Source: Hallerella succinigenes
Lineage (GTDB): Bacteria > Fibrobacterota > Fibrobacteria > Fibrobacterales > Fibrobacteraceae
Reading direction: 5' to 3'
NCBI RefSeq assembly: GCF_002797675.1
Contig: NZ_PGEX01000001.1
Coordinates: 930,001 to 994,000, forward strand
DNA: 64,000 bases
The notes beneath the pieces were generated by a model. That model did not search any database. It saw nothing but the letters and a program-made list of their open reading frames with translations, and was not told where the DNA came from. This document shows, piece after piece, positions 25,015 to 28,935 of this stretch (the stretch's first letter is position 1; each line of letters begins with the position of its first letter). A program made the position numbers and the translations under genes.

Positions 25015-26367
25015 CTATTCCTCGCTTTCAAACGCATCGTTTGCGGTCGTCGGAGGGGTGTAAGTGATGCCCTGGAACTTCAAAGTATCTCCATGAGGCA
25101 GGTTCACCCGAATGCTCTTGACGTAATCTGCAGGGTCAAATTTGCCCGACTTGAGATTGCGGATTACCAGTTCGTCGCCCGAATAGAAGACGAGATCCTG
25201 GTAGTCGGACGGCACATTCACCATGGTGATGGAGTTGCAAGAACTGACCGTTTTAAAGTTACTGGTTCCACGAAAACCGACTCGAATGCTGTACGCCCAG
25301 CAGAGGGTATCCTGCGTGAATGCGCCTTCTGCAACGAGGAAGACCGAGCCGAGGAAGTTCGAAGTTTTTGCAAGGGTCACCGTCGAAACATGGAGCGTGT
25401 CTTTTGCTTCTTCCAAATCGTCCTTGTCGATGTAGTCCGAAAGGCCCATGAGAACGCCGCCCGCAGAATCCTTGCTGCGAAATTCCACGCGGAAGCTGTC
25501 TTCGATCAAATCAAAAGCCGGAGCAGCCACACGCCAGACGCCCATCGAATCCGTGACAGCCTGCGTCACAAAGGCTGCGCTATCCAAAACGCCAAAGCCG
25601 TAAAGATCCGTCACTACATGGACCGAAACGCCCTTCGCCGGCTTGCCGTTTGCGTTCTTGACGACGCCCTGCAAAATCTTTACCTGGGTCGGTTCGTTTT
25701 GCGAAGCGTCCCAGCGCAGCTTGCCGACATCCAAAGTGTCACCGGCAGAAACCATCACCGAAAGCTTACGGATAATCGTCGAATCCGCATAGCCCGAGGA
25801 GCGGAGCTTTGTAATCACGCTCGAATCCGCCGGGAGGATCGTCAAAGAGTATGCGCCTTCCGGAAGAGCGATCTTAAAGGAATCCGGAGCGAAAACGTCG
25901 ATCGAGAACGTCGTCGAATCGAGTTGTACCCTAAAGTGCGAACCTGCGAGGAACGAGGCGTTGCCCGTATATTCCAGTTCGCCCACCACCAAGGCCGATT
26001 CGCGGAGCTTTACGCGCAGGCTGTCTTCACTCTTGGAAGAGACATGGCGAATAATCTGCGTTTCGGAGAGTGTCGAATCGTTTGAATGATAGCGGAATTC
26101 AAAATTCACCGTATCGGCAATGGTGCTGTCGAAAGCAAAGGCGCCGAGCGAATCCGTTTCCGTTTCAATAAAGTCCAAAATAGAAGCCGAACGAGCCACG
26201 ACCTGGCGCACCGAGATCCCGCTTCTTGCAGAACCGTTGGCAAGGGTCACCGTACCAGCGATCGTGTTTTCCGTATCGGTCGCGGTCCCTGCAACCTTGT
26301 CGGAACAAGCCAAAAAAACGAAAGCGCCGAGGAGAAGCGCGAAGATGCGCAGACTAATCTTCATCAT
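25015..26367 (-). CDS. Lipoprotein with carboxypeptidase-regulatory-like beta domains, coupled to a TIGR02147 regulator
   Basis: Start set at ATG 26367 (MMKISLRIF), 450 residues, with GGAG 6 nt upstream inside the regulator gene. Lipobox FLAC. An N-terminal beta module (about 33-110; TIAGTVTLANGSARSGISV...DSLGAFAFDS) and a second (about 228-300; LQGVVKNANGKPAKGVSVHV...TDSMGVWRV) look like carboxypeptidase-regulatory or CarboxypepD_reg folds, which act as Ig-like spacers. The rest is beta-rich and unassigned. It overlaps the upstream regulator by 14 nt, so the two are translationally coupled and probably linked in function. Confidence 0.8.
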   Translation of the reverse strand: MMKISLRIFALLLGAFVFLACSDKVAGTATDTENTIAGTVTLANGSARSGISVRQVVARSASILDFIETETDSLGAFAFDSTIADTVNFEFRYHSNDSTLSETQIIRHVSSKSEDSLRVKLRESALVVGELEYTGNASFLAGSHFRVQLDSTTFSIDVFAPDSFKIALPEGAYSLTILPADSSVITKLRSSGYADSTIIRKLSVMVSAGDTLDVGKLRWDASQNEPTQVKILQGVVKNANGKPAKGVSVHVVTDLYGFGVLDSAAFVTQAVTDSMGVWRVAAPAFDLIEDSFRVEFRSKDSAGGVLMGLSDYIDKDDLEEAKDTLHVSTVTLAKTSNFLGSVFLVAEGAFTQDTLCWAYSIRVGFRGTSNFKTVSSCNSITMVNVPSDYQDLVFYSGDELVIRNLKSGKFDPADYVKSIRVNLPHGDTLKFQGITYTPPTTANDAFESEE

Positions 26368-27229
26368 CGGAATCTCCTTCGGTTTCATCCATTCGAGCTT
26401 CGTTCTCCTGGAGAGCTTCGAGCTCCTTCGAGAGCGGGAAGAATTGGATATTCAGTTCACAGATCATCGACTCATGATCGTCCGAGCGGACGATATCGAC
26501 CACTTCCTTACGAAATGTATCAATTTTATGGATGATGCGTTCAAGCCCTTGCGGAGAAACGCTCATCGTCGTACACGAAACGTTACGACGTTCGGTACTG
26601 TAACGGTCCACGGCAGCCTTGCCGAGGTCCATCATTTTCTTTTGGAAGTCGTGAACGATAAACGGTGGAATTTCTCGGCCACTGGTGATTGTCTTGTTGA
26701 CAGAACGCCAAAAACCGTTTTCTTTTTCGATAAGGCCGAGATTCGAAAGCAGCTTGATCGCCTGCTTTGCCTGCGGAACCGTAATGCGCGGGTTGAGGAA
26801 CAGGGCGAGATCCTGGTAGTTGTCCGAAACATTCAAAACGGACAGAGCCTCACGGACGGCGACATAATACCATTCCTTATAATATTCTATCTGCTGACGG
26901 GAGAGCGCCTTGGTCGTACGCGGAAGAAGGGCGGACATTTTTTCAAAGATGACCTGCTTCGATTCCGGGGTTTCCGCATGGGTGAAGTCCACCATCAAGC
27001 TGAAGTAGCGGCCTTCCTTTTCGGAAAGTCCAAGCGCATGGATGAACTTGGGAACCATTTGCGGGGTCAAAGACTTACGGCCCTTCACAAGATCAAGATA
27101 GAATCCGCTGGACGTGTAGCCCGCTCGCTTAGCGAAAGCGCGATACGAAAAATACCGTTGTACGGACTTACGGTACTCGTAATAATCCTGCAGGTACTTT
27201 CGATAATTGTAATAGGCGAACACGTTCAT
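26354..27229 (-). CDS. TIGR02147 family (DUF4423) putative transcriptional regulator
   Basis: A 291-residue protein. The start MNVFAYYNYRKYLQDYYEYRK is the hallmark of the TIGR02147 family, multi-copy in Fibrobacter. Residues 28-75 (SYRAFAKRAGYTSSGFYLDLVKGRKSLT, quoted in part elsewhere) form a Cro/XRE-like helix-turn-helix; a longer helical DUF4423 part follows, and residues 145-185 (ITVPQAKQAIKLLSNLGLIE) look like a winged helix. The C terminus is acidic. A TATATT box lies 12 nt upstream of the ATG and a TTGGGAACAC element lies at the -35 position. The lipoprotein gene downstream overlaps its end. It probably controls this locus, possibly itself; its target is unknown. Confidence 0.8.
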   Translation of the reverse strand: MNVFAYYNYRKYLQDYYEYRKSVQRYFSYRAFAKRAGYTSSGFYLDLVKGRKSLTPQMVPKFIHALGLSEKEGRYFSLMVDFTHAETPESKQVIFEKMSALLPRTTKALSRQQIEYYKEWYYVAVREALSVLNVSDNYQDLALFLNPRITVPQAKQAIKLLSNLGLIEKENGFWRSVNKTITSGREIPPFIVHDFQKKMMDLGKAAVDRYSTERRNVSCTTMSVSPQGLERIIHKIDTFRKEVVDIVRSDDHESMICELNIQFFPLSKELEALQENEARMDETEGDSDDED

Positions 27230-27240
27230 AGCGCATTAAA

Positions 27241-27346
27241 AATATATTTTCTCCTATTTTTTGGGAACACCTAATTGTGCAAAGATTTTGTAAGTTTTTA
27301 GCGAAATTTCGTTAAAAGAACAATTTGGGAACACTTTTGGGAACAA
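27241..27346. promoter_or_regulatory. Repeated TTGGGAACA elements and a dyad upstream of the TIGR02147 gene
   Basis: TTGGGAACAC occurs at 27261-27270 and 27325-27334, and TTGGGAACAA at 27337-27346, all in one direction; a weaker copy lies near 27383-27392. An 18-bp imperfect palindrome TTAGCGAAATTTCGTTAA (27298-27315) sits between them. The first copy overlaps the -35 position for the TATATT box at 27241-27246. These look like operator sites. Confidence 0.55.
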
Positions 27347-27405
27347 CTCCTCTACTCTTCGCGCGATTTTTTGTCTATTTTCAAGGAACACCCAATCCCA
27401 TCCCT

Positions 27406-27442
27406 AGAATCGCGATCTATCAAAAGGTCGCGATTCTTTTTT
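27406..27442 (+). terminator. Terminator-like hairpin 13 nt before the hydrolase-like gene
   Basis: AGAATCGCGA (27406-27415) and TCGCGATTCT (27428-27437) form a perfect 10-bp stem followed by T6 on the plus strand, ending just ahead of the ATG at 27456. It would end a transcript coming from the left, so it marks a leader attenuator or the 3' end of a small RNA. Confidence 0.75.
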
Positions 27443-27455
27443 ATCTTGTAGCGCG

Positions 27456-28220
27456 ATGAACGCTCTCAAGAACATCCTTTTCAAGATTCTGCGTCTGATC
27501 GGCATTTTCGCTCTGATCTACGTTTGCCTTCTCCTTTACATGGTTATGTCGGAACGCCGCCTGGCGTTCCCCCGTGCAGAAATCGACGACGCTTCCGAAT
27601 CGGCGCTCCGTGACAACGCCGTCCTTTGCCACGTCGAAAACGACAAAAAGCTTCAGGGCTGGATCCTGAACGATTCCCTGCCGACAACTGCACTGTACTT
27701 TGCCGACCGTGGCGAAGATGCGGCGACCTTCCTCGCCAACGCAAAGAGGATTTCGGGATTTCGACTTGTCACGTTCAACTACCGCGGTTCCGCCGGGAGC
27801 GAAGGAACGCCAGGCGAAAAGTATTACGACTCGGACATTCGGGCAATGGTCGGCTGCGCCCATTCGAACGACCTTATCTTCATCGGTCATGGCACGGGAG
27901 CGATCGCCGCGTACAATTCTTTTGCAAGCGGGCTTGGCAAAGGAGCCCTTCTCGTTGACCCTGCAGAGAGTTTTAGTTCCGCTTTATCGGCACGTTACCG
28001 AATTTTCTTTCCGAAATTCCTGAGCAGGACCCATTCGCGGATGATTTTTAGCGATGAACAATCCAATCCGGCGACCGTCATCGCAGACGACCCTCGTCGT
28101 GGTGAACTTGTACGCAATTTATTGAACAAGCATTCTAAAAAATTTACCTTGGTCGAGCGAGAAGGCAATTCTTTACTAGAAGTCATGCAGGCCGAGCTTA
28201 CAAAAATAAAAACAAAGTAA
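27456..28220 (+). CDS. Membrane-anchored alpha/beta hydrolase-like protein, catalytic residues replaced
   Basis: A 254-residue protein with one N-terminal membrane helix (about 10-32). The body follows the alpha/beta-hydrolase plan: FNYRGSAGSEGTPGE (107-121) matches the family NYRGxGxSxG segment. The nucleophile elbow, normally GxSxG, reads GHGTG (144-148), so glycine replaces serine. Where the family has its catalytic His, the sequence reads EGNSLLE. It is therefore probably a non-catalytic homologue. A terminator-like hairpin sits just before the start. Confidence 0.7.
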   Translation: MNALKNILFKILRLIGIFALIYVCLLLYMVMSERRLAFPRAEIDDASESALRDNAVLCHVENDKKLQGWILNDSLPTTALYFADRGEDAATFLANAKRISGFRLVTFNYRGSAGSEGTPGEKYYDSDIRAMVGCAHSNDLIFIGHGTGAIAAYNSFASGLGKGALLVDPAESFSSALSARYRIFFPKFLSRTHSRMIFSDEQSNPATVIADDPRRGELVRNLLNKHSKKFTLVEREGNSLLEVMQAELTKIKTK

Positions 28221-28296: not shown

Positions 28297-28935
28297 ATGG
28301 ATAGCTTTAAAGCTAGAATGGATATCCGTGGTTTTCTTCGCTTCTCTAAAGAACTCGCGGAAAAGTTCAAACTCAAAACAGCCGTTTACGCAGATCTGAT
28401 GGTGGATAAGGTCGGCGGTCGAATCGCCATTATCCCGACGAGCAAGCTCAAGGCAACGTCCTTCCGCATTCTCCCGTCGAACGGCACTTATCTTCTGTAT
28501 CTCCGCGGCGCAATGAACGTCGTCGGCATGAAGGTCGTTTCGGGAGACGTCGAACTCACGAAAGAAGACGACAAGATCATTTTCCAGAAGAAAAATTCAA
28601 AGAAGACCGGTGCGTGGGAACTCTTCGCCTGCCGCAATTCCGCAGGCCTTCCGATGATTTCTATCGATGCCCGCGGAACGATGATCCTCGACAAGCGTTG
28701 CATCACCGCTCTCAACACAATAAAGAATTCGACGGCGACTCCGGAATTCGATCCCAAGAAAAAGACATTTAAATTAACTTTCGGCAAGAAGGGCCTGCTC
28801 AACATCCGCACCATCGAAAGTCACGCCAGTCTTTCTATGATGGGGACGTTCCACTCTTTCGGCGTCAAACTTCCGGAATCTCATGTGCGTTACTGCGTCC
28901 AGATTTCGGGAAACGTCATGACTTTCAAACTATAG
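28297..28935 (+). CDS. Hypothetical protein
   Basis: Start set at ATG 28297 (MDSFKARMDIRGF), 212 residues; GGTGAGG lies about 9 nt upstream, and the GTG at 28282 is within that site. I do not recognise a family. It has no signal peptide and no membrane segment and is rich in lysine and short beta-like stretches (GTYLLYLRGAMNVVGMKVV, FKLTFGKKGLLNIRTI). It is followed after 10 nt by a small membrane protein, so the two form an operon. Confidence 0.65.
   Translation: MDSFKARMDIRGFLRFSKELAEKFKLKTAVYADLMVDKVGGRIAIIPTSKLKATSFRILPSNGTYLLYLRGAMNVVGMKVVSGDVELTKEDDKIIFQKKNSKKTGAWELFACRNSAGLPMISIDARGTMILDKRCITALNTIKNSTATPEFDPKKKTFKLTFGKKGLLNIRTIESHASLSMMGTFHSFGVKLPESHVRYCVQISGNVMTFKL

Follow-up and report, generated by a model that had tools for sequence, protein, structure and literature searches.

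A TIGR02147 regulator, its partner lipoprotein and a predicted divergent small RNA form a candidate cellulase-control module in Fibrobacteraceae

Fibrobacter ranks among the leading degraders of cellulose in the rumen and is important for plant-fibre breakdown; the F. succinogenes genome paper left the transcriptional control of its cellulases unanswered and placed the regulators probably elsewhere in the genome (PMC3079729). The locus described here lies in a 64-kb stretch of Hallerella succinigenes DNA (the window), and the question it raises is whether a TIGR02147 regulator gene that overlaps a lipoprotein gene and is preceded by repeats constitutes a self-controlled set, as the initial annotation had proposed, or belongs to something wider. 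Self-control and coupling are both retained in our analysis, but the pair is not isolated, as the same operator also faces an RNA gene, cellulase genes and chaperone-lipoprotein genes. The best explanation of the sequence evidence, to which we assign a probability of roughly 0.7, is that regulator, small RNA and lipoprotein would form a module controlling cellulases. Such a module would be a first testable candidate for Fibrobacter cellulase control, comprising a regulator, a DNA motif and candidate cellulase targets, and a first functional lead for the large and uncharacterised TIGR02147 paralogous family; it also includes a conserved, previously undescribed predicted small RNA in genomes without detectable Hfq.

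The regulator matches the TIGR02147 profile over its full length (341.8 bits against a cut-off of 50; profile positions 2-271 of 272; NCBIfam) and has a C-terminal DUF4423 match at residues 106-266 (PF14394; 110 bits vs 30; Pfam). A weak Xre/Cro-type HTH signal is seen at its N-terminus (residues ~24-80), together with weak PDB profile matches over residues ~15-80 to the HTH proteins C.BclI, 3kxa and CI repressor (E 0.11-0.17). The AlphaFold model, predicted from an alignment of close orthologues only, was poor (pLDDT 54) and unfit for a fold search. Close orthologues of the regulator (62-98% identity) are present across most Fibrobacteraceae genera, with only distant relatives in three of them (g6, g8 and g9). 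The papers searched contain no mention of TIGR02147 and a single one of DUF4423, which serves there to label an entry of a proteome table. The starts of the regulator gene and of the hydrolase gene on the far side of the intergenic region lie ~10-15 nt past -10-like boxes (27229-27246 and 27443-27456), which suggests leaderless or near-leaderless transcripts in this group.

The overlap between the regulator and lipoprotein genes is 14 nt, as had been annotated, when the lipoprotein is read from its ATG at 26367, and an overlap of 1-14 nt is found at 59 of 60 distinct orthologous loci. The only domain signal noted in the lipoprotein, a CarboxypepD_reg match, was below threshold. TIGR02147 genes occupy 13 loci in the window's genome (12 full genes and one fragment), and at 11 of these, including 10 of the 12 other copies, a lipoprotein gene lies directly downstream, usually with an overlap of a few nucleotides; lipoprotein neighbours at other TIGR02147 genes, looked for at the suggestion of the initial annotation, are thus present. 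Repeat clusters upstream of the other TIGR02147 genes, looked for on the same suggestion, are absent at the 12 paralogues, whose upstream regions score at most 1.7 bits with the operator matrix vs 38 for the regulator's own, and an operator common to all TIGR02147 paralogues was rejected on this absence. The data support lipoprotein coupling as general in the TIGR02147 loci of this genome and the operator as specific to one paralogue. The TIGR02147-lipoprotein pairs among the 13 loci (L001-L013) form a general two-gene unit, and a TEN...(I/V)AG motif often stands past the lipobox.

Upstream of the regulator, the three direct copies of TTGGGAACA first reported there are the only exact ones in the window (27261, 27325 and 27337), single-mismatch copies occur at chance level, and TTTTGGGAACA is found five times in the 3.13-Mb genome, with two of the five at the regulator locus. 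Repeat analysis of this region returned three 14-nt copies. The repeated elements are present, but the probable functional unit is shorter than these copies: a GAAC half-site that recurs every ~11-12 bp, with further half-sites proximal to the regulator and at the start of the small RNA (Table 1). The TATATT box on the minus strand was also recovered, with the first TTGGGAACA copy 17 nt upstream of it, over the -35 position; an AT-rich -10 box is kept in the orthologues. A position matrix gives the tandem operator 38 bits, vs 6.8 for the next best site in the window. The CGAAATTTCG palindrome is present in the window as described, but it does not persist in other species of the genus and is not a conserved element.

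Table 1. Coordinates of the features of the regulator locus in the window.
Feature	Position	Strand	Basis
Partner lipoprotein MMKISLRIFALLLGAFVFLAC-SDKVAGTATDTENTIAG...	25015..26367	-	Sequence; ATG at 26367
TIGR02147 (Fsuc_second) regulator gene	26354..27229	-	NCBIfam and Pfam profile scores
Regulator promoter -10 box (TATATT)	27241..27246	-	Sequence; start codon 11 nt further
Proximal operator TTTTGGGAACACCT, covering the -35 of the regulator	27259..27272	+	Repeat analysis; orthologue conservation
CGAAATTTCG palindrome	27302..27311	.	Kept in L020, lost in L021-L024
Tandem operator, GAAC at 27318 and 27329 (11 bp apart), third at 27341	27318..27344	+	
Small-RNA -10 box (TATTTT; family consensus TATATT)	27376..27381	+	Orthologue conservation
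Small RNA, ~58 nt: 5' part, then terminator	27385..27442	+	Conservation, covariation
Near-invariant 5' part GGAACACCCAATCCCATCC	27385-27403	+	Orthologue conservation
Small-RNA terminator (intrinsic; stem of 13 pairs, T-run)	27406..27442	+	Terminator located at 27406-27437; covariation

Comparison of 113 orthologous intergenic regions, of which 84 are distinct, reveals that these elements are kept at the orthologous loci: the TTGGGAACA copies stand in fixed register in all 84 distinct regions, and a tandem GAAC pair exactly 11 bp apart is found at 84 of 84 distinct loci (consensus AAAAAGAACACTTTGAGAACACTTT). Nearly all 84 have a proximal GAAC ~28-45 nt from the regulator start codon and another where the divergent unit begins. 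Between the tandem site and the divergent RNA start, the spacing falls at 55-57 bp (59 loci), 64-67 bp (24 loci) or 76 bp (one locus), and never at 58-63 bp among the 84 distinct loci; these steps correspond to helical-turn shifts, which a protein that works from a single side of the DNA would tolerate. Helical phasing of the proximal-to-tandem spacing is suggestive only (R 0.34 on unique distances). The tandem GAAC site is also found upstream of class-level homologues of the regulator (f3, ~46% identity), where the small RNA is absent, which ties the operator to the regulator beyond the family Fibrobacteraceae. The proposal of self-control is supported by both the conserved site over the regulator's own -35 and the tandem site at the class-level homologues. 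A 29-nt direct repeat (76%; TTTT..CTATTTT..GGAACACC.AAT) is shared by the regulator promoter (27247-27275) and the small-RNA promoter (27368-27396), a pattern that would fit an origin of both RNA start and proximal operator in one duplicated element. At one f3 homologue (L045), GGAACACCCAATC, which agrees with the RNA start over 13 identical nt, adjoins the tandem operator; this locus has no terminator, and a protein gene stands where the small RNA would be.

Past the repeats, and outside the interval 25015-27346 covered by the initial annotation, lies a predicted, unannotated small-RNA gene in divergent orientation, whose RNA has a 5' end that is single-stranded and fixed and finishes in an intrinsic terminator. 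Its 5' sequence GAACACCCAATCCCATCC is almost invariant, with the predicted start at GGGAACACC, and the 5' 18 nt, from GAAC on, are nearly fixed across loci while the stem drifts with compensation. A TATATT-type box stands 5-10 nt before GGGAACACCCAATCCCATCC at every locus with the exact 5' block; the T-A---T-T positions of this -10 element are kept in 97-100% of 81 distinct loci, across which no conserved -35 was found, and the assignment of an own promoter draws on consensus evidence only. A hairpin and T-run follow GGGAACACCCAATCCCATCC at all exact-block loci except one (L106), with 93.8% of cells in the stem paired, changes in both partners at 10 of the 11 scored pairs, and a covariation score of 0.781 vs 0.322 when shuffled and at most 0.256 when slid. 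Since the regulator lies on the opposite strand, any transcript ended by this terminator must begin in the intergenic region or run antisense to the regulator. The RNA is without a match in Rfam (best E ~1, far below the gathering cut-offs), and a resemblance of GGAACACCCAATCCCATCC to 5S rRNA was rejected because of this lack of an Rfam match and its single copy.

Among 101 relatives, 44 carry the small-RNA block, each in exactly one copy, and all 44 belong to genera with a regulator orthologue; among the same 101 relatives it was not found in genera g6, g8 and g9 or in other families. Across the 84,980 species genomes of GTDB, 63 of the 67 block matches are in Fibrobacteraceae, and the remaining four, near chance expectation in number, lack both the regulator and the terminator. 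At L028, L041 and L044, orthologous loci where the exact block is missing, the start has diverged and a hairpin is present. Hfq was detected in none of 21 genomes, including the window's own complete genome, with control genomes positive.

Computational searches for targets of the small RNA gave little signal. Its pairing with the start of the partner lipoprotein gene is no better than with shuffles (77 of 200), its pairing with the regulon mRNAs is weak, and none of the target classes beats shuffled controls. Among the regulon mRNAs, a conserved GGATGGG complement is found in the GH8 leaders only (z -1.1 to -1.7). No recurrent strong complement RTGGGRTTGGGTG was found in 63 genomes other than the RNA itself and scattered sites; of four such sites inspected, three lie inside open reading frames and one in a simple repeat. 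Complements to the 5' end that span start codons of secreted-protein genes (L189, L204, L205 and L221) precede GH30-like and GDSL-esterase-like genes in single relatives and one secreted-protein gene in two genomes; these are isolated, are not kept across the genus and are suggestive at most.

We searched 63 family genomes for the exact operator GAACNNNNNGNGAACACTTT, with the reversed pattern, which gave zero matches in these genomes, as a control. The operator was found upstream of an FKBP-type isomerase (chaperone) lipoprotein gene in ~13 Fibrobacter genomes and upstream of a GH45 lipoprotein cellulase gene, one GH9 and one GH8 cellulase gene, the GH8 and GH9 sites being in Fibrobacter. With three mismatches allowed, the search also reached more GH8 promoters, the gene of a 149-aa lipoprotein and, in two genera, that of an unnamed secreted protein; the other additional matches inspected were mostly inside open reading frames. 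When a position matrix trained on the regulator locus only was scanned over 50 GH45 loci, matches of at least 9 bits fell only 112-188 bp before the GH45 ATG or, at one locus, before a divergent gene, and came from the window's own genome, its genus and genera g2, g3 and g5. Over the 2.2 Mb scanned on both strands, four matches of at least 9 bits are without a recurrent explanation. The window's genome (G000) has exactly two sites with the exact tandem pattern, at the regulator locus and before GH45 (GAACGATTAAAGAACACTT, 118 bp before the ATG, with the GH45 promoter at about 1446485 of C1), and three further genomes (G002, G003 and G005) have the same two. The operator stands before GH45 in 19 of 49 regulator-positive and 0 of 14 regulator-negative genomes (Fisher p 0.006, with genomes without a test counted as negative and genome relatedness ignored), and at the thresholds used it is absent there in most regulator-positive genomes. 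The occurrence of the same operator before cellulase and chaperone-lipoprotein genes indicates a regulon, and not only a self-controlled pair. Proteomics of F. succinogenes on cellulose, in which the GH45 protein FSU_1893 was up, the GH8 protein FSU_3149 down and 40 of 49 lipoproteins down (PMC6851124), fits this regulon loosely, as a whole rather than gene by gene.

If the regulator and lipoprotein were a self-controlled pair standing alone, with operators at their own locus only and no other targets, this would account for the conserved operators upstream of the regulator's own gene and for the lipoprotein pairing that is general in the TIGR02147 family. Such a pair is very unlikely, however, given that the tandem operator faces the divergent RNA and also stands before cellulase and FKBP genes, where neither its position nor its distribution over genomes is explained by chance. 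Somewhat more weight, although still little, goes to an operator network that is real but bound by another protein, with the TIGR02147 gene as one target among others: the HTH of the regulator is weakly predicted, and the assignment of the operator to it rests on sequence. Against such a protein stand the autoregulatory position of the sites, their joint absence with the orthologue, and the retention of the operator at class-level homologues without the small RNA, together with its absence from the 12 paralogues.

GGAAC is the usual -35 core of ECF sigma factors, so that the GGGAAC sites could be taken for promoter elements of this type instead of TIGR02147 operators. We regard this as most improbable, because the sites are tandem at exactly 11 bp and stand a long way upstream from the -10 of the small RNA. 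They are also oriented away from the genes of the regulator, FKBP and the 149-aa lipoprotein, and they follow the TIGR02147 orthologue in their presence. It also seems hardly probable that the block and hairpin are the leader or attenuator of the downstream alpha/beta-hydrolase gene rather than a free small RNA. That gene starts only 14 nt past the T-run in the window, but a separate -10-like box directly precedes the ATG of the hydrolase genes, the 18-nt 5' part stays constant irrespective of the hydrolase gene, and other genera keep the block and hairpin with long or different sequence past them.

Under the favored module, the TIGR02147 protein would bind the GAAC sites, with the conservation of the tandem 11-bp pair marking it as the probable main operator, and would repress the regulator-lipoprotein operon through the operator copy over its own -35. 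From ~56 or 65 bp upstream, the tandem pair would activate the divergent ~58-nt RNA; we infer activation because the upstream sites are phased and there is no conserved -35. The position of the operator before the GH45, GH8, GH9 and FKBP-lipoprotein genes leads us to expect cellulose degradation and envelope-protein folding under control of the regulator, with a presumed sign of control. Pairing of the small RNA with mRNAs would proceed independently of Hfq, and the co-translated lipoprotein probably acts as the input arm. A broader picture, in which this is the founding case of a novel type of signalling module, with the lipoprotein as a surface or secretion sensor that together with the regulator and the Hfq-independent small RNA switches Fibrobacter between cellulose-degrading and other envelope states, and in which the other pairs are parallel, insulated channels with their own operators, is possible but doubtful.

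Divergent pairs of a regulator and a small RNA are known; what is new is the regulator family, the RNA, the lipoprotein partner and the cellulase regulon. In the enterobacterial SgrR/SgrS and GcvA/GcvB systems, a transcription factor and a small RNA are divergent and share intergenic operators, and the Fibrobacteraceae locus has the same layout, with operators between the two genes and an intrinsic terminator on the RNA. The proposed auto-repression and RNA activation also resemble SgrR/SgrS. Unlike in SgrR/SgrS, the regulator is an unrelated TIGR02147 protein, the RNA is without an Rfam match, the module has an operon lipoprotein and a cellulase regulon, and Hfq was not detected; by analogy, the best reading is that the module would work like SgrR/SgrS without being a homologous family member. 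With the other TIGR02147/DUF4423 paralogues the regulator shares full-length membership and a lipoprotein neighbour, but among the copies of the genome only the gene at 26354-27229 has the operator and the small RNA. CelR is a LacI-type protein. The module resembles it in that a dedicated DNA-binding protein, here a predicted one, has sites in front of several cellulase genes, and differs in that the TIGR02147 regulator is not LacI-type and in its small RNA and lipoprotein. A CelR-type cellulase regulator, for example that of Thermomonospora fusca, is cited in the genome paper (PMC3079729).

Several further observations concern the operator sites and their neighbors. A CRP-like palindrome, TGTGA-N6-TCAC, adjoins the operator before the 149-aa lipoprotein (L281, L282, L285-L288, L311 and L315), and related TCAC/TGTCA pieces at the GH45 and GH8 promoters would fit catabolite control. 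A neighboring gene in the window (28297-28935; MDSFKARMDIRGFLRF...) is conserved and has no Pfam match; in some Fibrobacter (L033, L115 and L139), but not in the window, an operator-like site lies ~113 bp upstream of it. The tandem operator is also found upstream of related secreted proteins with an FNFGR...NNYW motif in two genera (L279:1-1386, minus strand; L273:1570-3018, plus strand), which have no Pfam match and are possibly an unrecognised polysaccharide-active enzyme.
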